Origin: Methylococcales symbiont of Iophon sp. n. MRB-2018
GTDB taxonomy: Bacteria > Pseudomonadota > Gammaproteobacteria > Methylococcales > Methylomonadaceae
NCBI GenBank assembly: GCA_003666325.1
Contig: QPIL01000119.1
Coordinates: 1-64,000 of the forward strand
Length of the DNA: 64,000 nucleotides
Reading direction: 5' to 3'
The notes under the pieces are model-generated. The model was given only the letters and a program-made list of their open reading frames with translations, did not search any database and was not told the DNA's origin. Shown here one piece after another: positions 155 to 64,000 of the stretch. Within the stretch, counting starts at the first letter, position 1. Each line of letters begins with the position of its first letter. Both the position numbers and the translations under genes were made by a program.

Positions 155-159
155 TGCTT

Positions 160-293
160 ATGAATGGATAAAAAAGGCTAGAATATTTCCATCTTTCAGC
201 CAAAATAACGCATTATTACACTTGTATTTTGACTAAAACCTGAAAAACCCCATCACTTTTTTTGTCCGTTCCAGAATTATGCCGAGTTCTCTT
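160..293. mobile_element. MITE-like hairpin element, copy 1 (one end lost)
   Basis: This stretch aligns over about 130 bp, at nearly 90 percent by eye, with the reverse complement of 54004-54155. Shared blocks include GGATAAAAAAGGCTAGAA, CATCTTTCAGCCAAAATAAC and GACTAAAACCTGAAA. The right end carries a degenerate terminal repeat (CAGAATTATGCCGAGTTCTC). The left terminal repeat is missing and is replaced by the 7-bp array. No ORF is present, which fits a non-autonomous element. Confidence 0.75.
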
Positions 294-5046: not shown

Positions 5047-5799
5047 ATGGCTGGACATAGTAAATGGGCAAATATTAAACACCGCAAAGGTGCGCAAGAT
5101 GCTAAACGTGGGAAAATTTTCACCAAGATTATTCGTGAGATTTCTGTGGCAGCAAAAATGGGAGGTGGAGAACCTGCAAATAACCCCAGTTTACGGACAG
5201 TGATAGATAAAGCTCTGGGTGCCAATATGAAAAGGGATACCATTGAAAATACTATTAAAAAAGCAACCGGCACCATAGACGGGGTTGTTTATGAAGAAGT
5301 TCGTTATGAAGGCTATGGACCTGGTGGGGTAGCAGTCATGGTTGATTGTTTAACCGACAATAAAAACCGAACCGTTGCAGAAGTCAGACATGCTTTTAGT
5401 AAAGTAGGTGGTAATTTAGGTACCGATGGTTCTGTCTCCTATCTGTTTAATAAAGTAGGTATTATCAGTTATCCAGATTCAGTAGATGAAGATGCAGTGA
5501 TGGAAGCAGCCATGGAAGCAGGTGCTGATGATATAGCCACAGATGATGATGGTTCGGTCGATGTGCTAACCTCGGCAGAAGAATATCTAATCGTTAAAGA
5601 GGCAATGATTACTGCTGAGTTTAAACCTGTGCATTCAGAATTGACTATGCAAGCAAATATCAAAGTCGATCTCAATGTTAAAAATGGGGAAAAAATGTTG
5701 CGCTTAATTGATGTACTAGAAGATTTGGATGATGTGCAAGATGTGTATTCTAATGCTGAGATTTCTGAGCAAGTGCTAAAGCAAATTGCCGAATTGTAA
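5047..5799 (+). CDS. yebC: YebC/PmpR family translation or transcription regulator
   Basis: The N-terminus [20 protein letters not shown] is the unmistakable YebC signature, and the 250-residue length is standard. Members are cytoplasmic. They have been described both as DNA-binding regulators and as ribosome-associated factors that ease translation of proline stretches. It lies just upstream of ruvC, the usual gammaproteobacterial arrangement, with a 10-bp gap. A small ORF at 4994-5203 overlapping its start is a shadow. Confidence 0.97.
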
Positions 5800-6307: not shown

Positions 6308-6902
6308 TTGGTTTTATTCGCGGTATTCTAATTTCAAAAGCACCCCCCCAATTAGTAGTGGATGTACAAGGTGTGGGCTATGAGCTTGAAGCCCCTATGA
6401 CCACGTTTTATGAGCTTCCCGCGATAGGTCAGGAACTCAAGTTATATACTCACTTAGTGGTAAGAGAAGACGCTCATATCCTTTTTGCTTTTATTGCTGA
6501 ATCAGACAAAATGATGTTCAAAAGTTTGATCAAAGTCAATGGTGTAGGGCCTAAGCTAGCGTTGACTATTTTATCTGGACAAAGTGCTGAAGAGTTTCGC
6601 CGTTGTATACATGATAATGATCTTCAGGCTTTAGTACGCTTACCTGGAATCGGTAAAAAAACGGCTGAACGCCTGATTATTGAAATGCGTGATCGACTGC
6701 CAACAAAAACTGATGCGGTAGAAGGTGGGCAAATTACTTCTATTAGTCCATCTGCTAGCAATCCAAAACAAGAAGCTATTAGTGCATTATGCTCCTTAGG
6801 GTATAAGCCACAAGATGCTATAAAAATGGTGCAAAATATCCCCCAAAAAAATAAAAGTTGTGAATATATCATCAGGCTGGCGTTGCAAGGAGCAGGTAGC
6901 AA

Positions 6903-6906
<4 letters not shown>
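6304..6906 (+). CDS. ruvA: Holliday junction branch-migration protein RuvA
   Basis: Tetrameric DNA-binding subunit that targets RuvB to Holliday junctions. The start at 6304 gives the conserved MIGFIRG N-terminus and a 200-residue protein, close to the usual length; an upstream in-frame ATG at 6250 lies inside ruvC and is rejected. Two helix-hairpin-helix motifs are visible ([13 protein letters not shown] and [16 protein letters not shown]), and a C-terminal domain III binds RuvB. It overlaps ruvC and ruvB by four bases each (ATGA), forming a tightly coupled operon. Confidence 0.97.
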
Positions 6907-9979
<3,073 letters not shown>

Positions 9980-10892: not shown

Positions 10893-11031
10893 AACTGACA
10901 ATTGTACAACAGATATATTTTTTTACAAGAAGCTAACGCTAAGCTAAGCTTGAGTGTTTTGTTAGCTTTATTTGCGATTGATGATTGAATAGACATGGAT
11001 AGCAAAAGATTTATAGAGACCTTGGTATTCT

Positions 11032-11102: not shown

Positions 11103-11273
11103 ACCGCGTAGCTTGGGCTGGTTAATCTGCCGCTATCAAAATAACCGTGGCGAAAACGACCCAGAAGTGAGCCGCTGAGCTTTGTTATTATTTAAGTTTT
11201 AAGCAATCAAACTCCTACGCCAATCCGCCCGTTTTGGTGTGGGTTTTTTATTGGGCAATTTTAGGAGAAAAAA

Positions 11274-11813
11274 ATGAAAAAACTATTACTTATTATTGGA
11301 CTTAATATCTCACTTTCAGCGGTTGCTCTACCACCTGATATGCAGGCAGATAGGTATTTACTGCAAGTGGAAAAAGCCTTGCAAGGAAAAGATAAAGATT
11401 ATAAAAAAGCTGTTGAGGTTATGGATAAAATCATAGCGTTAAAAGACCAGCATAATTTACAGATGCCGATTGAGTTTTATTTTAAATATGCCAAGATTAC
11501 ATTAAAAGGAGACGGCAAACAAAAAGCCAATAAAGCCTATACTGCCATTAACCACTATCTGCAAACTGCCGGCAGACAAGGTGAACATTATGTTGAAGCA
11601 TTAAATTTATACGACCAATCACTTTTTTTGCGTTTGGGTGAGGCAAAAACTGCTAATGAAGTTAAAGAATTAATTGAATTGGGGGCAGATGTTAATGCAG
11701 TAAACAAAAATGGCAAGAAGATACTATCGAGCTATATAAATTATAATAATATGTCAGATAGCGACAAAGTAAAAGTAAGATACTGGCTTAACAACCCCAG
11801 CCTACTTCGTTGA
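11274..11813 (+). CDS. Secreted protein of unknown function with an ankyrin-like C-terminus
   Basis: The 179-residue product has an N-terminal signal peptide (MKKLLLIIGLNISLSAVA, cleavage near residue 18) and no lipobox. The middle is helical and Lys-rich, with spaced Tyr residues as in TPR-type helices. Residues 125-155 (EVKELIELGADVNAVNKNG) read as one ankyrin repeat. RBS GGAG lies seven bases before the ATG. It sits 28 bp upstream of a membrane-protein ORF, and an attC-like site closes the pair. Function unknown; periplasmic protein binding is the most one can infer. Confidence 0.75.
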   Translation: MKKLLLIIGLNISLSAVALPPDMQADRYLLQVEKALQGKDKDYKKAVEVMDKIIALKDQHNLQMPIEFYFKYAKITLKGDGKQKANKAYTAINHYLQTAGRQGEHYVEALNLYDQSLFLRLGEAKTANEVKELIELGADVNAVNKNGKKILSSYINYNNMSDSDKVKVRYWLNNPSLLR

Positions 11814-11841
11814 TTTTTTTTAACTTTTAAGGAGTAATAAA

Positions 11842-12195
11842 ATGAAAAAATTTAAAGCACTCATACTCTTCGTGATAGCTTTTGCATTCGCAAAACTCAT
11901 GGGAGAAATTATTTCACAAAATACTCTGATAGATGATGGTGTTATTGACAAACTTTATTATGCAAGAGCTATTAACAATGCTTTACCACAACTGTCTTTA
12001 GCTATTGTTTTGCTTATCGTGTATTTAATTACGTTGGTATTGAAATCATTAAGAGAAAAAGGTAATTCTAAATCACATTCCCAGTTACAGGAAATGGAAA
12101 GTACCTCTAATACAACTGAGCAAATACAAAATTCTAAGACTATTGAAAATAAGTTCCGTCTCAGAAAGAAATGTCATTGGCTGGTATCTGTTTAG
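11842..12195 (+). CDS. Small membrane protein, probably the 5' part of a frameshifted gene
   Basis: 117 residues with two transmembrane stretches (about 6-22 and 48-68) separated by a short loop, then a polar Ser/Gln/Asn-rich tail. RBS AAGGAG stands eight bases before the ATG. The tail runs into a second frame (12143-12352) that continues with two further membrane segments, so the two ORFs may be one gene broken by a frameshift near 12160. No family recognised. Confidence 0.55.
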   Translation: MKKFKALILFVIAFAFAKLMGEIISQNTLIDDGVIDKLYYARAINNALPQLSLAIVLLIVYLITLVLKSLREKGNSKSHSQLQEMESTSNTTEQIQNSKTIENKFRLRKKCHWLVSV

Positions 12196-12352
12196 TTCAG
12201 CAATTATTGGCGGTGTATTTGGAGGATGCGGTGGTTTTGCGTTTGCAAACTTTACACTTGGCTTAACTGAGTCTGTATCAGAAATTGTAGGTTGGGCAAC
12301 AGCAATTACACTTGGAATTATATCTTTTAAAAGAAGGTGGGAATTATTTTAA
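12143..12352 (+). CDS. Small membrane ORF overlapping the previous one
   Basis: 69 codons from a TTG at 12143, with hydrophobic stretches at about 13-33 and 45-60 and glycine-rich packing (GGVFGGCGGFAFA). It has no ribosome site of its own and overlaps the previous ORF by 53 bp, which favours it being the 3' half of a frameshifted membrane protein. It stops one base before an attC-like site begins at 12354, as a cassette gene would. Confidence 0.45.
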   Translation: MKISSVSERNVIGWYLFSSAIIGGVFGGCGGFAFANFTLGLTESVSEIVGWATAITLGIISFKRRWELF

Positions 12353-12353
12353 A

Positions 12354-12453
12354 AGCTAACAAAAGCATACACACGGACCACCAAAAAGCGGCGCGGCTTC
12401 CGCTACACTATAGCCACACCATTTTTGGCGGTCGATGATGCAGGTCGTTATGC
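12354..12453 (+). other. attC-like site (integron cassette end)
   Basis: An imperfect palindrome of about 100 bp. The outer arms are AGCTAAC and GTTATGC. Inside these, GCATACACACGGACCACC and AAAAA pair with TTTTTGG and CGGTCGATGATGC with bulges, as in attC sites with extrahelical bases. The centre holds a GC-rich hairpin. It lies directly after the membrane ORF stop and 22 bp before the next gene, as expected for cassette boundaries. The core GTTATGC differs from the GTTRRRY consensus at one base. Confidence 0.65.
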
Positions 12454-12475
12454 TTTCAAATAAGGATAAGACTCA

Positions 12476-12880
12476 ATGATTAAACAAAAAACTTTACAGA
12501 TATTATTATTAATATTATTACTTTTTATATCATCACATGCTTTCTCTTTAACAACAAAGCAGATAAATAAGATGTTGGTTAAAATTTCCAATGATTTGAA
12601 TTCAACTTTACCAAAAATGATTGACTCTGAAATACAATTGACTTCAACATGGACACTTAATAAAACTCTTATATATCGTGGTGAATTTATAAATTATGCA
12701 GCAGATAAAATTACTGCTTCGACTCTTCGTGAAGAAATGACTCCCAGATTAGTCAATACTTTTTGCACTAGTCCTGAGCTTAAAATATATAGAGATAATG
12801 ATATTAAATTATCATATATATATTTTGGAAAAAATAGTAAACATATTGTTTCCATTGATATTTCTAAAAAGCAATGTTGA
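12476..12880 (+). CDS. Exported small protein of unknown function (cassette-type)
   Basis: 134 residues with a signal peptide (MIKQKTLQILLLILLLFISS, cleavage near residue 22) and no other membrane segment. The mature part carries two Cys, in NTFCTSPE and in the terminal KKQC, that could form a disulfide. The C-terminal pattern (NTFCTSPE, then R-D-N-D, a Y-x-Y-F strand, a G-K turn, S-I-D-I and a final Cys) resembles small exported hypothetical proteins. It directly follows an attC-like site, consistent with a cassette gene. Function unknown. Confidence 0.65.
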   Translation: MIKQKTLQILLLILLLFISSHAFSLTTKQINKMLVKISNDLNSTLPKMIDSEIQLTSTWTLNKTLIYRGEFINYAADKITASTLREEMTPRLVNTFCTSPELKIYRDNDIKLSYIYFGKNSKHIVSIDISKKQC

Positions 12881-13047
12881 AAAAACATTTGCTGTTAAGA
12901 GGACGCCACCCTAGCGTTTTATGACACCACAGAGCAAAAACTAGATATACATCCAACTTCGATGCTTGCACGACAAATTAAGTACCTATCGAGAAAATTA
13001 GTATTGTATAACTTGTAAAGTACACCAATAGCGTATATTATTGTGAG

Positions 13048-13386
13048 ATGATTACTATTGCTGAAACCGAATCTTTTTTAAAGAAAGCATCTAAATTACT
13101 TCCCAAAGAAGATAAAGAGAATTTAATTTTATATTTGTCTGAACACCCAAGTACAGGTGACATAATTCAAGGAACTGGAGGTATTAGAAAGCTAAGGTGG
13201 GCAAAAGGTAATAAAGGAAAAAGTGGTGGGTTTAGAGTTATTTATTATTTTCATAATAAAAAAATGCCACTTTATCTGTTAGCTATTTTCTCAAAAAATG
13301 AGAAAGTAAACATTAGCACCGAAGAAAAACATTTTTTATCCAAAGCAGTTAAAGAATTAGTCACATATTGGAGATATAGACAATGA
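13048..13386 (+). CDS. RelE/HigB-like toxin
   Basis: A 112-residue RelE/ParE-superfamily protein, likely a ribosome-dependent mRNA interferase. The core shows GTGGIRKLRWAKGNKGKSGG, then FRVIYYFHN and LLAIFSKNEKVN, the pattern of HigB-type toxins paired with HTH antitoxins. No SD is obvious before the ATG. The stop overlaps the start of the antitoxin gene by four bases. The toxin-first order is normal for HigBA. Confidence 0.85.
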   Translation: MITIAETESFLKKASKLLPKEDKENLILYLSEHPSTGDIIQGTGGIRKLRWAKGNKGKSGGFRVIYYFHNKKMPLYLLAIFSKNEKVNISTEEKHFLSKAVKELVTYWRYRQ

Positions 13387-13670
13387 TTACAGCATTTAGT
13401 GAAATCTCAGCAGGACTTACCGAAGCAATTAATCATGCTAAAGGTGAGGAAACAAAGGTTATTGAGCATGTAGCTAAAGACCTTAATGTAAAAGCGATTC
13501 GTGAAACAACAGGAATGAGCCAGCAAAAGTTTTGTGCTACATTTGGCATTTCCGTTGGAACATTAAGAAACTGGGAGCAAGGTTTACGTTCACCTAGAGG
13601 GACAGCAAGAGTGTTGTTGCAAGTTGTAAAGCACAATCCAGCAGCTATTATTGAAGCAATTCAACATTAA
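13383..13670 (+). CDS. HigA/NadS-like HTH antitoxin
   Basis: A 95-residue protein with a central helix-turn-helix of the XRE type (RETTGMSQQKFCATFGISVG, then TLRNWEQG). It ends with RGTARVLLQVVKHNPAAII, the tail shared by NadS and HigA2-type antitoxins. It probably neutralises the preceding RelE/HigB-like toxin and represses the operon. ATGA overlap with the toxin gene. An attC-like remnant begins shortly downstream. Confidence 0.87.
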   Translation: MITAFSEISAGLTEAINHAKGEETKVIEHVAKDLNVKAIRETTGMSQQKFCATFGISVGTLRNWEQGLRSPRGTARVLLQVVKHNPAAIIEAIQH

Positions 13671-13675
13671 GAAAA

Positions 13676-13740
13676 ACATAAGCAGAGTATGCACTTGACC
13701 ACAAAAAGCGTCATTTTTTTGCAAAAGAACCGTAAAAAGT
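13676..13740 (+). other. Degenerate attC-like remnant
   Basis: CACTTGACCACAAAAAGCG and TCATTTTTTTGC, followed by AAAAG, align with the reverse complement of the vapBC attC-like site (CACTTGACCGTAAAAAGCG, TCATAAATTTTGC). A second arm fragment, CCGTAAAAAGT, follows at 13730. The core arm is not intact. It lies six bases after the HigA stop, the expected cassette position. Confidence 0.45.
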
Positions 13741-13952
13741 AATCAAAGGGTTCAGATACAGAATATAAGGGGACGCCACCCCTTTATTCAATCCAGTCTT
13801 TTGTTATTTTTAGCCTTTGTGGCTAATGTTAGGGCTGTCAATAGGCTTAGTATCGTAAATAGATGTATCTAAACTCACCATTGATTGTGGATTATCAGTA
13901 ACAACAAAAAACATCATCACAAATTTGCTAATAACAGCAAAGGCCTTAATGC

Positions 13953-14483: not shown

Positions 14484-14760
14484 TGTGTTGGGTTGCCAAA
14501 AAGACGGCAGCCCAAGTTACGCCGTGTTGCCCTAGTAAGCTCCGCACTTTCGCCTTGCTCTTGAACGCTTTGCTCTTGAGCAGAACAGAGAGCAATCTAA
14601 GCGGTTACGGAGTACGCTGAGTAGTTACAAGAAATCAAATGATTTCATTTTTATGCAATATTTCTGCTGATTTTTGCTAAATTTTTAGGCATTAATTTCT
14701 GTTTTTCTATAAAATCATTAATTCGATTGAAATTCCATTCATTTTATTCTCAAAACTTCT

Positions 14761-18612: not shown

Positions 18613-18874
18613 AATCTAAAGTTCATCGTGCTACCACTAGATTTTGGTCGTGCTTTGAGCGTTTGCCAATGCCTATTCAAGAAATAGCAAGAAAAAATTA
18701 CAAACTTCTCAAGAATGATGTCCATCACCCCTCACTGCATTTAAAAAAAAGGTAGGGAGTTTTTACTTAGCAAGAGTTGGTATTAATTATCGTACACTTG
18801 TAATAAAAGACCATAATGATTTTATTTGGCTATGGTTAGGTACAGATGAAGAGTATGAGTGTTTAATCAAATAG
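18609..18874 (+). pseudogene. ParE-like toxin, frameshifted at an A8 run
   Basis: From a GTG at 18609 the frame reads TTRFWSCFERLPMPIQEIAR and KNYKLLKNDVHHPSLH. It then fails in a run of eight A at 18743-18750 and continues one frame over as KVGSFYLARVGINYRTLV and FIWLWLGTDEEYECLIK. The joined product (about 88 residues) is a typical RelE/ParE-superfamily toxin. A one-base change in the A-run would restore it, so it could also be phase variable or a sequencing error. Confidence 0.75.
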
Positions 18875-18931
18875 CATAACAAATCATTCCAGCCGACGGC
18901 TAACGAGTGTTGCACTTATGATGTGAATTTA

Positions 18932-20645
<1,714 letters not shown>

Positions 20646-41481: not shown

Positions 41482-41582
41482 AAAGACGAAAGACGAAAGA
41501 CGAAAGACGAAAGACGAAAGACGAAAGACTAAAGACTAAAGACTAAAGACTAAAGACTAAAGACTAAAGACTAAAGACTAAG
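41482..41582. repeat. 7-bp tandem array (GACGAAA, then GACTAAA)
   Basis: About six GACGAAA units followed by eight GACTAAA units with almost no imperfections. The two variants are segregated into blocks, which suggests expansion by local duplication. It begins about 90 bp upstream of the ubiG start codon. Confidence 0.95.
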
Positions 41583-41633
41583 TATTGAGTCCTTAGTCCT
41601 TTTTTAGGCTGATAGAGGTGGTTTTTTGTTTGG

Positions 41634-41671
41634 GTTTTTAAGGGTTGTCTAAGTAGTCAACCCTTAAAAAC
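41634..41671. other. Long hairpin at the edge of the duplicated module
   Basis: GTTTTTAAGGGTTG pairs exactly with CAACCCTTAAAAAC around a 10-base loop. Only the right arm is kept in the second copy of the module at 56254. Confidence 0.8.
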
Positions 41672-41856
41672 ACAACAACCATCTGATTTATAACAATAAA
41701 TTAAACAAAAACCATAGACAAAACAAGCAGTATTTGGTAAAATAACGGCTATTTCTTGGTCGTTTTGCTGATAAAACATACTAACAAAATCAACCCCAAA
41801 CACAGAGCAACTAAACCTCTTTCATTCAGAGTTATTTGTTGAACAGGGTATAAGAG
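41656..41856 (-). repeat. ~200-bp duplicated module, copy 1
   Basis: Matches 56254-56457 at about 90 percent by eye over the full length, including CATCTGATTTATAACAATAA and CAAAATCAACCCCAAACAC. A short third piece is at 63208-63250. On the minus strand both full copies encode a hydrophobic C-terminal tail. Confidence 0.85.
41749..41856 (-). pseudogene. IPTL-CTERM-like sorting tail fragment, copy 1
   Basis: The minus strand reads QQITLNERGLVALCLGLILL, then VCFISKTTKK and a stop. The layout (T-L-N-E then a hydrophobic helix and a basic end) resembles the IPTL-CTERM sorting signal (I-P-T-L-S-E-W-G, helix, basic). No start codon or passenger domain is attached, so this is the detached end of a larger gene. 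Confidence 0.45.
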
Positions 41857-41875
41857 CCGCGTCACTCCCTCTGTC

Positions 41876-41943
41876 ATTCCTGCATGTTCTAAGCAGGAAT
41901 CCAGGTGTTTAAAACTAGATTCCCGATAACAGACTTCGGGAAT
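41876..41943. repeat. REP-like double hairpin
   Basis: Two adjacent hairpins: ATTCCTGC with GCAGGAAT, and ATTCCCG with CGGGAAT, separated by CCAGG and an AT-rich spacer. This CATTCC(T/C)GC...GCAGGAATCCAG style is common among dispersed extragenic repeats in proteobacteria. Confidence 0.65.
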
Positions 41944-41969
41944 AACGTGTAGTAACAGAGGTTCCAGTT

Positions 41970-42120
41970 ACTTTAGTCTTTAGTCTTTAGTTCTTAGTTC
42001 TTAGTTCTTAGTTCTTAGTTCTTAGTTCTTAGTTCTTAGTTCTTAGTCTTTGAGTCTTTGAGTCTTTGAGTCTTTGAGTCTTTGAGTCCTGAGTCCTGAG
42101 TCCTGAGTCCTGAGTCCTAA
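41970..42120. repeat. Long 7-bp tandem array (TTTAGTC, TTCTTAG, TTTGAGTC, CTGAGTC blocks)
   Basis: Roughly 20 units in four blocks: TTTAGTC, then TTCTTAG repeated about eight times, then GAGTCTTT (one 8-bp step then 7-bp period), then GAGTCCT. Each block is internally almost uniform, showing stepwise expansion of variants. Between 42121 and 42250 there is no gene. Confidence 0.92.
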
Positions 42121-42249
42121 CCGTTAAATGTAAGTAAAACTTTGAGCAGATGTTTACTGTGTTTTTTGTGGGAGTATTAATGTACCAGCGGTAAATATGG
42201 CTACTTGGCAGGGCAGGTAAAAGATAGAGTAAAAAAAGGGGAGGGGGAG

Positions 42250-44571: not shown

Positions 44572-44575
44572 AAAC

Positions 44576-44625
44576 AGGAGGCAAAGATTTCATAGGTGTA
44601 GTAACCATGAAAATTACAGCCTCCT
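44576..44625 (+). terminator. Long hairpin after selO, in the 44572-44852 gap
   Basis: AGGAGGC pairs with GCCTCCT, and inside that TTTCAT pairs with ATGAAA. It is five bases past the selO stop but lacks a T-run. Further along, ACACTCTG at 44760 pairs with CAGAGTGT at about 44803. A TAACGCC motif at about 44715 resembles the outer arm of the attC-like site at 47772. No gene seen. Confidence 0.5.
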
Positions 44626-44852
44626 CAATCAATTTAATAAATGACTCAGATTAAAATATATGTTCTTCTAAATTCATTTATTTCCTTTCAGTTTAAAAAA
44701 CTCCCAGCTCATAACGCCAAATTCAATGGCCGTTGGCAGAGGTTCAATGAACTAAGCAAACACTCTGAACTTTGATAAAAAACAAGCTTATAATTTATCA
44801 ACAGAGTGTCCAGTCAAGTGGGGGAACTTCAGTTTAGGGCTTATTTTTATTT

Positions 44853-45123
44853 CTAATCCGCGCCTACCTCCACTAACATCACGCCTTGTTTTTTTTGATA
44901 TATAGGAGAGATTGCACCCTTTAAATACCCAGTAACTTTTTCTGCTTTTTTAACATCCATCATTGCTATTTTTTTATGCTTAGAGCCTTAACAAGTTTTT
45001 TGTATTCAAGCTAAAAGATACAGGAATAATAGCTACAACACAGCTTATCTTGTCTGCTAATAACAGCAGCGTTTTAAAAACTATATTACCATCTAAATTC
45101 AAAGACTCTATAGCTGTAGCCAT
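44853..45123 (-). pseudogene. ybaK (Cys-tRNA(Pro) deacylase) remnant
   Basis: The minus strand reads MATAIESLNLDGNIVFKTLL, VVAIIPVSFSLNTKNLL and then, after a stop near 44980 and a frame change, AMMDVKKAEKVTGYLKGAIS and PIYQKKQ. YbaK/EbsC proteins have the same order (V-F-K-T-L, V-P-V, then M-A-D-x-x-x-A-E-K-V-T-G-Y-x-x-G-G-I-S-P). The first 30 residues and the C-terminal 40 are missing. It lies two bases after csaA. Confidence 0.75.
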
Positions 45124-45125
45124 GA

Positions 45126-45485
45126 TTAAGCCAACCTTTCGCCATTAGTTACTGACATACTAGGTTCCATTAATACTGTTCCTGTATCTTTGCAAATTAT
45201 AGCTAATACAAGAACTTCTGATTTCACACCTGCTACTCTTCTAGGTGGAAAATTCATCACCGCACAAATTTGTTTACCTATAAGAGACTCTTCGGTGTAG
45301 TTTTCAGTTAGCTGTGCTGAGCTTTTTTTTATTCCAATGTCATACCCAAAGTCTATATCTAATACATACGCAGGCTTTTTTGCTTTTAGGTTAGTTGTCG
45401 CTGAAACTATAGTGCCAGCTCGAATATCAACATTTAAAAAATCTTCAAATGTTATTTCTTGAGAAATATTTTTTCCAAATGACAT
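45126..45485 (-). CDS. csaA: CsaA-like tRNA-binding domain protein
   Basis: The 119-residue product is a single OB-fold tRNA-binding domain: FEDFLNVDIRAGTIVSAT, KKPAYVLDIDFGYDIGIKKS, YTEESLIGKQICAVMNFPPR and SEVLVLAI. CsaA and YgjH proteins have this composition and are reported to have chaperone-like or tRNA-binding activity. Its stop is two bases before the ybaK remnant, so the two were probably acquired as an operon. The upstream gene is cut off right before its start. Confidence 0.9.
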   Translation of the reverse strand: MSFGKNISQEITFEDFLNVDIRAGTIVSATTNLKAKKPAYVLDIDFGYDIGIKKSSAQLTENYTEESLIGKQICAVMNFPPRRVAGVKSEVLVLAIICKDTGTVLMEPSMSVTNGERLA

Positions 45486-45509
45486 AGCTTTAAGTTTGGT
45501 GGATTCGAC

Positions 45510-45809
45510 TCATAAGTGCACCACATCTAATTTACTGGCATCAACGCCCGTGTTTTCATAAAATACCTCGCAAGTATTTGAAAGCACCATACCATTCAGT
45601 TTTTTTGTTGTCGTATTAGGCAATTCAATAGGCAATAACTCTGAAAACCCATCACCTTGATAAATTATGAAATCATTCTTTAAAAAACTTGTATATAGCC
45701 GTTTATCTATATTTTCAGGGAAATTTTTTAATTCAGAAAATAAATTTTCATTTGCAATATTAGATAAATATTGAGGGAGATATTTTTTTATATCCTCAAA
45801 ATCAATCAT
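45510..45809 (-). CDS. Third gene of TIGR04255 operon, apparently truncated
   Basis: 99 residues from an ATG that overlaps the previous stop codon (ATGA). The N-terminal part DFEDIKKYLPQYLSNIANEN and the block GMVLSNTCEVFYENTG look like the start of a larger protein of the type that accompanies TIGR04255 genes. The reading stops soon after, just before csaA, so the C-terminal half seems lost. No catalytic motif visible. Confidence 0.55.
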   Translation of the reverse strand: MIDFEDIKKYLPQYLSNIANENLFSELKNFPENIDKRLYTSFLKNDFIIYQGDGFSELLPIELPNTTTKKLNGMVLSNTCEVFYENTGVDASKLDVVHL

Positions 45810-46111
45810 ACTAAATCCCAAAAATTTTTATCAATTGCTTCTGAAAACTCTAAAGGTATATCTTCAATGTTTTCAAGTAAATTTGATGAAAATTTATGGA
45901 TAGTTTCTATATTTTTCTTTTCTTGTAAATAACTATTATCAACCAAAGTATATCGGTCAAATGATAACCCATGACTAACTTGCACTTGAGATGATGATGT
46001 GGGTTTAACCTGTAACAATGCAAGTAATTGTTCATCTATAGATACACCACAAAATAAAATTGCTGTTGTTACAGACGTTCCAACAGTATGAGGAAAATTA
46101 ATTAATCCCAT
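45806..46111 (-). CDS. Second gene of TIGR04255 operon, unknown function
   Basis: A 101-residue soluble protein with no signal peptide or membrane segment. It contains a run with several Ser/Thr (VKPTSSSQVQVSHGLSFDRY) and an acidic C-terminus. The start is 11 bases after the TIGR04255 gene and the stop overlaps the next gene (ATGA). No family recognised. Confidence 0.6.
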   Translation of the reverse strand: MGLINFPHTVGTSVTTAILFCGVSIDEQLLALLQVKPTSSSQVQVSHGLSFDRYTLVDNSYLQEKKNIETIHKFSSNLLENIEDIPLEFSEAIDKNFWDLV

Positions 46112-46122
46112 ATTAATTACCT

Positions 46123-46839
46123 TTAATATTCTACAGTTAATGTTTTTAGAACTTTGGAGCCTATTATTTTATAAAATAATCTTTTTTCTTCTTCATGCAC
46201 TTGATTTAAGTTATCTAAAAAACACTTTGATTCAACATTCTGTATAGATGAGTCAATATCAACCACTGACCCATGAATAATCTCATTAGTCATAGCAACT
46301 TGCGCCCCACTTATTACTCTTACAGAGCTAGAAATAGAATCGTTTTTGATTTCAGTTACTAAATTTATATTAGAACTATCTAAGGGAGAGTTTTCTAATA
46401 CAACCTGTACACTTGATGAATCAAATATATTCTTATGTGGAAAAACATTTATATATCTTAGTGCAAGCCTATTAATTTTAGTTATTATTCCTATTTTCTG
46501 TAGCTTTTTAAATGTTTTGCTTATTCTTTCTTGAAAACATTCCCATCCCTTATATTCTTTGGTATTTACTAAAGATATTGCTTTAGGTCCAATCTGCATA
46601 GTGAAAAACTCACTATCCATTTTATAATGAGGAGCAAACATTAAGTTAGGGTCTTGATTCCTAATTTGAGAGGGCACTTCTAATATAGGTAGAGACGTAG
46701 CAGTATTGTTGAATTCATCTTTAAACTGATTAAATACGATTCCAAAAATAGCATCTTCTGGTACAGAAGACTCAAACCTTAGCTCAAACACAGCCTCTTT
46801 TATTGGGCAAGGAATTATTTTTTTAGGTAAATCAATCAT
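46123..46839 (-). CDS. TIGR04255 family protein
   Basis: 238 residues. The N-terminal CPIKEAVFELRFES (about 11-24), the strand-loop motif TMQIGPKAISLVNTKEYKGW and the central INRLALRYINVFPH are the hallmarks of the sporadically distributed TIGR04255 family. The function is unknown, though its patchy distribution and small accessory-operon context suggest a role in conflict or stress rather than housekeeping. It is the first of three tightly spaced minus-strand genes in an AT-rich accessory pocket next to vapBC. Confidence 0.75.
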   Translation of the reverse strand: MIDLPKKIIPCPIKEAVFELRFESSVPEDAIFGIVFNQFKDEFNNTATSLPILEVPSQIRNQDPNLMFAPHYKMDSEFFTMQIGPKAISLVNTKEYKGWECFQERISKTFKKLQKIGIITKINRLALRYINVFPHKNIFDSSSVQVVLENSPLDSSNINLVTEIKNDSISSSVRVISGAQVAMTNEIIHGSVVDIDSSIQNVESKCFLDNLNQVHEEEKRLFYKIIGSKVLKTLTVEY

Positions 46840-47124
46840 TTACTACATTCAATTAAGAATAATTTGCGATTAATTATAGCTTATTTATTCATTAATTGTA
46901 ATTGTATAGGCTGGCGACAGGTATAATTTACATACGAAATGGTATCTAGGTGCTAACGCCAAAATAAGCCGCTACAAAAAGCGTGAGGACCCTCAGCTGC
47001 CAGTGGTCGACTGGAATTTTTTGTTATATTTTTCTTTCAATATACTGAAGTTTAAGTTTCTCTTGCCTTTACTTTTAAACAATATATACTTTTTAATATA
47101 TACTTATTAGCTGGAGAATATTCT

Positions 47125-47358
47125 ATGAACACTCAAACCGCCAAGATTTTTATGAATGGTCGAAGCCAAGCCGTACGGCTGCCCAAGGAATATCGTTTTG
47201 ATACTGATGAGGTTTACATTTCAAGGCAGGGGGACAATATTATTATTTCTGCTAAAAAACCAACATGGGATGAGTTTTTTGACTCTAAATCTAGCTTTGA
47301 TGATGACTTTTTAAAAGACAGGGATGATACCCCACCACAAGAACGGAATTTCGATTAA
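47125..47358 (+). CDS. vapB: VapB-type antitoxin (AbrB/SpoVT fold)
   Basis: A 77-residue swapped-hairpin AbrB protein: AKIFMNGRSQAVRLPKEYRF, then DEVYISRQGDNIIISAK, with an acidic C-terminal tail that would wrap the toxin. It binds its operator and neutralises VapC. GGAG lies ten bases before the ATG. The stop and the vapC start overlap by one base (TAATG). Confidence 0.93.
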   Translation: MNTQTAKIFMNGRSQAVRLPKEYRFDTDEVYISRQGDNIIISAKKPTWDEFFDSKSSFDDDFLKDRDDTPPQERNFD

Positions 47359-47753
47359 TGTATATGCTCGACACAGATATTTGTATTTACGTTTTAAAAA
47401 AGCATTCAGATAAACTACGACATAAATTCAAAGTTACAAAAAACATTTGTATTTCATCGGTTACATATGGTGAATTATGCTTTGGTATCGAGAATGGAGA
47501 TAACCCCATGAGAGAAGCACGATGGAAGGAACTCAACCTCTTTACTCAACGATTATTTATTGAGCCTTGGGGTGAAAGTGCTGCTAAACATTATGGTTCT
47601 ATTAGAGCATTACTTAGAAAACAAGGAACTCTAATTGGAAATAATGACCTTTTAATTGCGGCACATGCAAGAAGCCTGGACTCTGTGATGGTTACAAATA
47701 ATATTCGAGAGTTCAAGAGAGTTCCAAACCTTACATTAGAAAACTGGATATAA
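47358..47753 (+). CDS. vapC: VapC-type PIN-domain toxin
   Basis: A 131-residue PIN ribonuclease: MLDTDICIYVLKK (first Asp), ISSVTYGELCFGIE (Glu), then IGNNDLLIAAHARSLDSVMV with the third and fourth acidic positions, and TNNIREFKRVPNL near the end. VapCs of this class often cleave the anticodon loop of initiator tRNA; the target here is inferred only. An attC-like site starts 15 bp after the stop, making vapBC a plausible integron cassette. Confidence 0.94.
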   Translation: MYMLDTDICIYVLKKHSDKLRHKFKVTKNICISSVTYGELCFGIENGDNPMREARWKELNLFTQRLFIEPWGESAAKHYGSIRALLRKQGTLIGNNDLLIAAHARSLDSVMVTNNIREFKRVPNLTLENWI

Positions 47754-47768
47754 AAGTAATTCTTGAAA

Positions 47769-47867
47769 AAAATAACGCCCAAATCACTTGACGTAAAAAG
47801 TGGAGTGGCTTTTGCGACAGCAAAATTTATGACGCTTTTTACGGTCAAGTGGATTTGATTGTTAGGC
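47769..47867 (+). other. attC-like recombination site after vapBC
   Basis: A 99-bp imperfect palindrome. The left arm is AAATAACG...CAAATCACTTGAC and GTAAAAAG; the right arm is CTTTTTACGGTCAAGTGG, ATTTG and the core GTTAGGC, an exact GTTRRRY match. The arms pair over about 20 bp with single-base bulges on one strand, the hallmark of attC folding. The centre holds a TTTTGC/GCAAAA hairpin. Its position right after a cassette-type TA pair supports the call. Confidence 0.8.
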
Positions 47868-48016
47868 TCTTTTATTAACTGTATACGGGATAATTGTATT
47901 CTTACTGCTTTCAAATAATGGGGTTAACTGTATAGTTTCACCACGTTGTACCTGATTTAAGAATAATAAAGGACAGCCCTGATAACCTATTAAACTTTCA
48001 CCACAAAGGAATTAAT

Positions 48017-48124
48017 ATGCCCCAAGGCTATCACACGAATGCAAAAACAAAGCTGCATTCAAGAGAAATTATACAACAATCTAGTCTCAGTAATGCAGAG
48101 CTATCTAAACGCTTTGCAATAAGC
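48017..48124 (+). pseudogene. N-terminal fragment of an IS481/IS3-like transposase
   Basis: MPQGYHTNAKTKLHSREIIQ followed by SSLSNAELSKRFAIS is the typical N-terminal helix-turn-helix of IS481-type transposases. After about 36 codons the frame crosses into an opposite-strand transposase fragment and ends at 48217. An upstream AAAGGAATTAAT resembles a ribosome site. Confidence 0.65.
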
Positions 48125-48295
48125 GAACAAAATAATCCTGAGCAGAATAGCTGGATCATAGGTTGGACGACCTTCTTTATCGTTTTTGAAGGCTTTGTTA
48201 AAAATACTGATGTCTAGCTTTTGGGTAAGCGGATAATGCGGTGCATGTTCAAAGTTGCCAGTTTTCAGTTGATCCTGAAAATTGATAACAACCAT
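48119..48295 (-). pseudogene. N-terminal fragment of an IS1182/DUF772-type transposase
   Basis: On the minus strand the frame reads FQDQLKTGNFEHAPHYPLTQ, then LDISIFNKAFKNDKEGRPTY and DPAILLRIILFAY, the DUF772 N-terminal domain (G-x-P-x-Y-D-P, then L-L-x-I-x-L-F-A-Y). It ends at the junction with the IS481-like fragment near 48120. The region 48296-48570 holds only an unrecognised GC-richer stretch and the bcp leader. Confidence 0.7.
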
Positions 48296-48570
48296 GACAT
48301 TTTGGTTGTAGTGGATATAGTTGGCTATCGGAATACTCTGAATTTTGATGACCTATTTTAACAAGTTTGGGCGGTTCTTTAGGGCTTGAACGTGCAATAA
48401 ATAAACGTCCTAGATTGCAACGTCTAAGATGAATGCAAGAGCTAGCAGACGGGTGTGTTCTTTGTCGAAAAACATTATTGTTTATTTATTGTTAGATTTC
48501 AGTGATAATCAAGATGTATAATTTTCTAGATTTTAATTTATTCAAACAAAAACAATAAAAGGGGTTTTTT

Positions 48571-54003: not shown

Positions 54004-54155
54004 TGAGACCTCAGCATAACTCTGGACGAGATAAAAAAAGTGATAGAATCTTTCAGGTTTTAGTCAAAATACGAGTGTAATAGTGCGTTATTTTGGCTGA
54101 AAGATGGAAAACTTCTAGCCTTTTTTATCCGTTCATGAGTTATGCTGAGGTCTCA
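54004..54155. mobile_element. MITE-like hairpin element, copy 2 (complete)
   Basis: Terminal repeats TGAGACCTCAGCATAACTC (54004-54022) and GAGTTATGCTGAGGTCTCA (54137-54155) are perfect over 19 bp and continue imperfectly to about 35 bp (GGACGAGATAAAAAAAG against CTTTTTTATCCGTTC). An inner pair (TTTCAG, CAAAATA / TATTTTGGCTGAAA) makes the whole element fold as a hairpin. No ORF. It lies in the dksA-DUF3581 gap. No clear target duplication was identified. Confidence 0.85.
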
Positions 54156-56660: not shown

Positions 56661-56712
56661 GGAGTCTTTAGTCTTTAGTCTTGAGTCTTGAGTCTTGAGT
56701 CTTGAGTCTTGA
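56661..56712. repeat. 7-bp tandem array (TTTAGTC, then TTGAGTC)
   Basis: Two TTTAGTC units, then about five TTGAGTC units, directly after the AATCAAAAATAAAGGAGTC flank. Confidence 0.92.
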
Positions 56713-56770
56713 ACGTTTATTTTGAAGATATAGTGATTAATTTAACGGCTTATAAATTAAAGTTAAATTA

Positions 56771-63262: not shown

Positions 63263-63668
63263 GATCCGTAGGGTACGTTTGCCCACTAGGGATGGTGGAA
63301 ATGCAGGCATCCCTCCGGAGAGGGCTTAAAAGCCTCTCTCCCCCACGTTTTATCAACATGGTATGCAATGCAAGGACATGCAAGGACATGCAAGGATGTA
63401 GGGGCGAGCGGCTGCTCGCCCGCTCTTCCTATATTCCCGACAGCAGCACCAGATCCGTAGTAGCTCTGGTGCGTGGAACACACCCCTTGATTTTAAAAAC
63501 CCTGAAACAATCTCTGCTGACCGCCAAGGATGGTGGAAATGCAGATCCGTAGGGTGCGTTCCACGCACCGGATCCGTAGAGTACGTTTGCCCACCAAGGA
63601 TGGTGGAAATGCAGTAAGATTGTCTGAAACAATCTCTGCCCACGCACCAAAACCAATCAAAAACCAAG
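63263..63668. repeat. Composite repeat block with several module copies
   Basis: GATCCGTAGGGTACGTTTGC starts at 63263, GATCCGTAGGGTGCGTTCC at 63544 and GATCCGTAGAGTACGTTTGC at 63571; GGATGGTGGAAATGCAG occurs three times. Three tandem GCAAGGACAT units are at about 63370-63395, and GGGCGAGCGG/CTGCTCGCCC forms a hairpin at about 63402-63421. Short ORFs across this block are not considered genes. Confidence 0.8.
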
Positions 63669-63868
63669 GAGTCCTGAGTCTTTAGTCTTTAGTCTTTAGT
63701 CTTTAGTCTTTAGTCTTTAGTCTTTAGTCTTTAGTCTTTAGTCTTTAGTCTTTAGTCTTGAGTCTTGAGTCTTGAGTCTTTCGTCTTGAGTCTTGAGTCT
63801 TTCGTCTTGAGTCTTGAGTCTTTCGTCTTGAGTCTTTCGTCTTGAGTCTTTCGTCTTGAGTCTTTAGT
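63669..63868. repeat. Longest 7-bp tandem array (~28 units)
   Basis: Blocks of TTTAGTC (about 14 units), TTGAGTC, and alternating TTTCGTC-TTGAGTC in higher-order 14- and 21-bp units, after the AATCAAAAACCAAGGAGTC flank. It ends at the stop codon of the partial gene entering from the right. Confidence 0.95.
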
Positions 63869-63869
63869 C

Positions 63870-64000
63870 CTAAATCCTAAAACTTTTCAAAATCTCTTCC
63901 AGTGGAACCAAATTCATTTTTACTCTGAACAGCACATCATGATTATGAAGCAAACCATAGCAGTCGTAAGTTCTTACTTGAATATCAGTTTGGTTTAATG
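63870..64000 (-). CDS. C-terminal end of a gene entering from the right (partial)
   Basis: On the minus strand an open frame runs from the window edge to a TAG at 63870-63872, giving 42 residues (LNQTDIQVRTYDCYGLLHNH, then DVLFRVKMNLVPLEEILKSF and RI). No family recognised. The stop lies in the first degenerate unit of the heptamer array, so the C-terminus may have been set by the repeat. The start is outside the window. Confidence 0.5.
   Translation of the reverse strand, partial: LNQTDIQVRTYDCYGLLHNHDVLFRVKMNLVPLEEILKSFRI

Follow-up and report, generated by a model that had tools for sequence, protein, structure and literature searches.

In integrons generally, the integrase IntI recombines the folded bottom strand of attC sites (PMC11023631), integrase-less cassette arrays can be mobilized in trans (PMC12444791), and toxin-antitoxin cassettes stabilize the arrays that carry them (PMC11551772). 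Clusters of attC sites lacking an integrase (CALINs) are recognized by default in IntegronFinder 2 from at least two attC sites (PMC9024848). The locus described here, in a window of 64,000 nucleotides from a Methylococcales symbiont of Iophon sp. n. MRB-2018, shares with such clusters two close attC sites in the same orientation (47770-47867 and 46951-47029, both on the minus strand), cassette-like genes between attC sites, and no intI nearby; it differs from them in being very small, in carrying one chimeric-looking and one half attC site, and in that its genome retains three intact intI genes. We consider it highly probable (about 0.93) that the palindrome at 47770-47867, hereafter attC-1, is a cassette attC site in a small minus-strand CALIN without a neighboring integrase, inserted between selO and bcp. 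As an element, this CALIN belongs to a known kind and is an ordinary example of it. A type II toxin-antitoxin cassette, presumably with its own promoter, is a feature that it shares with sedentary chromosomal integrons, among them the Vibrio cholerae superintegron (PMC11551772, PMC11023631); the cluster in the window differs in being tiny and without intI and in having its vapBC genes inverted relative to attC, and it would be stabilized by vapBC only by analogy with those integrons.

The attC-1 palindrome begins 16 nt after the vapC stop codon and is imperfect; its long arms carry bulges and a hairpin lies at its center, as the initial annotation had described. Its DNA folding energy was -22.7 kcal/mol, compared with a mean of -10 for shuffled sequence (z -5.2), and 0 of 200 shuffles folded as well; either strand outfolded shuffled sequence by far (z about -5). 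The initial annotation had proposed running an attC covariance model on the window and the genome, and we used two such models, both giving E-values that are rough. R1 was derived from attC sites outside the source genome (G000), namely eight from class 1 integron cassettes on annotated plasmids along with two sites of more distant integrons; longer-spacer attC sites were left out of this 10-row alignment, in which the dfrA14 row is off by one column in the 3' arm. R2 was trained on 29 sites of the source genome located outside the window. In the window, R1 scored highest at attC-1 (minus strand; 32.3 bits, E 4.5e-5) and next highest at 46951-47029 on the same strand (28.2 bits, E 3.8e-4), and R2 scored attC-1 at 68.5 bits (E 1.7e-13). 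The plus-strand orientation of attC-1 was rejected, scoring 4.4 bits with R1 (filters off) and 11.2 bits with R2. A simpler scan for AAC...GTT palindromes proved too permissive and strand-blind, produced false matches in coding sequence, and was superseded by the covariance models.

Relatives of attC-1 were detected by blastn in the same genome, and its fold was common to 12 sites there, attC-1 being one of them. In their alignment, 88% of the cells were paired, and 13 of the 24 pairs had changed at both positions. The covariation score reached 0.41; shuffles gave 0.13, and slid controls no more than 0.11. The arms were paired with extra-helical bases, which correspond to unpaired columns 16 and 26 of alignment A4. 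Judged by these comparisons of sequence and predicted fold, attC-1 is a genuine attC site. The position of the palindrome directly after vapC, together with the existence of dispersed hairpin repeats in this genome, might instead point to an intrinsic vapBC terminator or to a REP/MITE-like hairpin repeat of the dispersed kind, an explanation that we regard as very improbable. No terminator-like match was found at attC-1, the site was detected by a model built only from outside attC sites, its extra-helical bases were conserved alongside the covariation, and its family was abundant in G000 and in the nearest relative, G001, while being absent or nearly so in relatives devoid of intI. The terminator and MITE readings were rejected on the strength of the external model, the covariation, and the distribution of the family genome-wide. 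Within the window, Rfam at gathering thresholds returned only a 6S RNA and a TPP riboswitch.

In the top strand of class 1 attC sites, the 5' arm is the one with the extra-helical bases, and R' stands at the 3' end. Because only the minus-strand reading of attC-1, GCCTAAC-AAT-CAAATC-(C)-ACTTGAC-(C)-GTAAAAAG ... CTTTTTAC-GTCAAGT-GATTTG-GGC-GTTATTT, matches this layout, we placed the site on the minus strand, in agreement with both models. The GTTAGGC motif that had been taken as the core site is, in consequence of this orientation, the outer R'' box (GCCTAAC, 47867-47861) read backwards, and R' is GTTATTT (47776-47770). R'' is an exact match to RYYYAAC, and R' fits GTTRRRY at five of seven positions. 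The crossover is predicted between G47776 and T47775, and the cassette that attC-1 ends lies to the right of it. Features in common with class 1 integron attC are the R''/R' boxes, the spacer, L boxes that pair, and a top-strand 5' arm with extra-helical bases; the site departs from class 1 attC in its longer variable terminal structure, AT-rich arms, and degenerate R'.

Taken in the right-to-left direction of the minus strand, the cluster comprises attC-1, a vapBC cassette with its own attC site (attC-2), one or two further cassettes, a half site (attC-3), and selO. The predicted vapBC cassette spans approximately 819 bp (46957-47775, minus), from the attC-1 crossover to that of attC-2. It encodes, on the plus strand, the antitoxin gene vapB (47125-47358; NF040493 and NF047862 above cut-off) followed by the PIN-domain toxin gene vapC (47358-47753; PF01850, with NF047863 above cut-off), a type II toxin-antitoxin pair by Pfam and NCBIfam cut-offs, in which VapC, going by the family name, is presumably a tRNA(fMet)-specific endonuclease. 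Promoter-like matches upstream of vapB were no more frequent than expected by chance. The attC-2 site (46951-47029, minus; R2 42.3 bits, E 1.8e-7) has the boxes R'' ATATAAC and R' GTTAGCA and lies 0.74 kb from attC-1. The description of an attC site following vapBC held insofar as attC-1 is genuine, but the attC belonging to the vapBC cassette is attC-2, upstream of vapB. Since both sites are on the minus strand and the genes on the plus strand, vapBC is inverted in its cassette.

The same inversion appears to be recurrent, as it was also seen in two gammaproteobacterial metagenome-assembled genomes encoding close relatives of VapC: one (L092) had a minus-strand attC at 5415-5526 (39.5 bits) beside a plus-strand vapBC, and the other (L091) had five attC candidates with E < 0.1, all on the minus strand, with vapBC on the plus strand. 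The locus of a third close VapC relative (L093) yielded only a weak attC candidate (E 0.17). In a more distant relative, G003, the homology of a vapBC pair with 82% DNA identity to the window cassette stopped exactly at the attC-1 crossover (47775). This G003 pair (L087, G003:C207, 3580-4995) also occupies the selO-bcp junction, with its genes on the opposite strand, and a duplication of approximately 120 bp spanning the upstream region and start of bcp flanks it; no attC match was obtained at that locus.

Leftward of attC-2, the next cassette contains a minus-strand TIGR04255-family gene (46123-46839; 108.9 bits), and the same cassette or the one after it contains a minus-strand gene for a CsaA-like tRNA-binding protein (45126-45485; PF01588, with NF007494 and TIGR02222 above cut-off). 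Only the 3' half of attC-3 is present (about 44710-44782, minus), showing 86% and 81% identity to the 3' halves of two G000 attC sites, and R2 did not match this half site, which is too incomplete. In attC-2, the 5' and 3' halves each resembled a different attC type of the genome, a chimeric appearance that perhaps arose by deletion or template switching between neighboring attC sites. From their sequences, the degenerate R' of attC-1, the chimeric-looking attC-2, and the half attC-3 suggest that the cluster may be inactive.

All of these features fall within a block of approximately 3.9 kb (44575-48455) between selO and bcp that is absent from G001, G005, and G008, where only about 80-115 bp separate the two genes; the flanks in G001, the nearest relative, are 93-97% identical. 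The block could reflect either insertion here or loss in the relatives, and the comparison favors insertion because three relatives have the short selO-bcp spacer. The route of that insertion we infer from the block and its edges. Probably, either an IntI working in trans put the cluster here, or the cluster is what remains of a larger array. According to the second of these routes, which concerns how the CALIN arrived rather than what it is, the cluster would be an eroded larger array, or a piece of an array moved by rearrangement or insertion sequences, and we hold this at just short of even odds. Consistent with it, multi-copy element fragments adjoin attC-1 immediately on the right and continue toward bcp. 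The first of them (47926-48122) recurs at 93-96% identity on several contigs in both G000 and G001 and is followed by a weak match to a DUF772 transposase, so that it probably represents insertion-sequence remains. The half-site state of attC-3, the chimeric look of attC-2, and the occurrence of the same attC family in arrays elsewhere in the genome point in the same direction, whereas the short, empty selO-bcp spacer of the relatives, the absence of any intI remnant on the contig, and the failure to identify target duplication or matching element ends around the block argue against it.

The first route, an integrase acting in trans that placed cassettes directly between selO and bcp at a non-attI site (attG), is a tentative reading to which we assign somewhat less than an even chance. 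On the left, homology with the unoccupied G001 site stops, in the minus-strand reading, at G|TTTTTAAG, a G/TT position, and the genome encodes intact integrases; however, no attC end adjoins this left boundary, the right junction is overwritten by the multi-copy fragments, and a G|TT boundary could occur by chance. As far as they are described in papers citing Loot et al. 2024 (PMC12444791, PMC12901181), attG insertions share with this block cassettes located away from attI in the presence of intact integrases, and differ from it in that the junctions of the block are not clean. By either route, the locus is read as a CALIN.

The observation of the initial annotation that no integrase was in view was correct for the whole of contig C83 (85.9 kb), which contains the window and showed neither a TIGR02249 match nor an intI remnant, but it did not extend to the genome. 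In this draft assembly (2.09 Mb, 123 contigs), the look for intI elsewhere that had been suggested revealed three full-length IntI above the TIGR02249 cut-off (on C69, C115, and C36), all of which keep the IntI1 catalytic residues R146, K171, H277, R280, H303, and Y312, along with degraded intI copies on C47 and C91. At the C69 locus (L031, 1-10891), the intact intI (6727-7710, minus) had attC sites on both sides: to its right, plus-strand sites at 9340 and 10053 followed the usual layout, and to its left, beyond the 3' end of intI, minus-strand sites were found at 395, 1418, 2043, 2954, and 3832.

Genome-wide counts of attC with R1 were 41 in G000, 44 in G001, and 0 in both G004 and G005; the corresponding R2 counts were 79, 106, 1, and 1, and because R2 was trained on G000, the independent R1 counts give the cleaner comparison between genomes. 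No intI match was obtained in G004 or G005, which belong to the same genus. Some more distant relatives without an intI match showed a few R1 matches (e.g., nine in G031 and eight in G034), which may represent CALINs or chance. The CALIN assignment of the initial annotation was borne out by two model-confirmed attC sites at a distance of 0.74 kb, a relic half site, an integrase-free contig, and dozens of related sites genome-wide. Approximately 80-106 attC sites were spread over many contigs in genomes of 2.1-2.2 Mb, some of them standing alone or in pairs between housekeeping genes. A broader proposal, that across the genus cassettes dispersed from resident integrons to many loci, mainly by integrase-driven insertion outside attI, seems to us unlikely on balance; if true, it would provide a natural example of genome-wide attG insertion.

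Similar sites had also been reported in the other accessory pocket of the window, and these were recovered. One attC at 12354-12453 (plus) scored 45.5 bits with R2 (E 3.4e-8) and 13.1 bits with R1, the latter not significant (E 0.95); its pocket (11120-13780) is largely missing in G001, which has approximately 300 bp there. The other, at 10931-10967 (minus), is a minimal attC-like hairpin without a central stem beside a PIN-like gene (R1 22.6 bits, E 0.007; R2 30.4 bits, E 1e-4), and it sits in sequence common to the window and G001. A weak R2 match was present at 18874-18974 (plus, 21.6 bits). The window contains further repeats of other kinds. Intergenic arrays of 7-bp units (e.g., GAGTCTT, TAGTCTT) occur in both orientations at 92-166, 41482-42130, 56662-56722, and 63659-63876. 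A palindromic repeat of approximately 130 bp (54018-54145), not attC-like by the covariance models, has relatives on C48 and C52 and shares inverted arms with window positions 157-291. In G001, a stretch of approximately 95 bp (14535-14630 of the window) is repeated more than 35 times at about 90% identity.

By analogy with described integrons, the single-stranded bottom strand of attC would fold into a hairpin, which an IntI made elsewhere in the genome could recombine at the G/TT of R', with cassettes being excised or joined in as a result. The vapBC pair, presumably expressed from its own promoter, would act against cells that lose the cluster and could thereby hold it in place. Taken alone, the locus represents ordinary integron biology, and the density of attC sites and integrases together with the recurrent inverted vapBC raises it slightly above routine. 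The analysis identifies a genuine CALIN in a genome dense in attC and equipped with three intact integron integrases. With close relatives that have empty sites, it offers a useful natural case for asking by what route cassettes come to lie outside attI, and the same case bears on the reason for the repeated inversion of the vapBC operon within its cassette.
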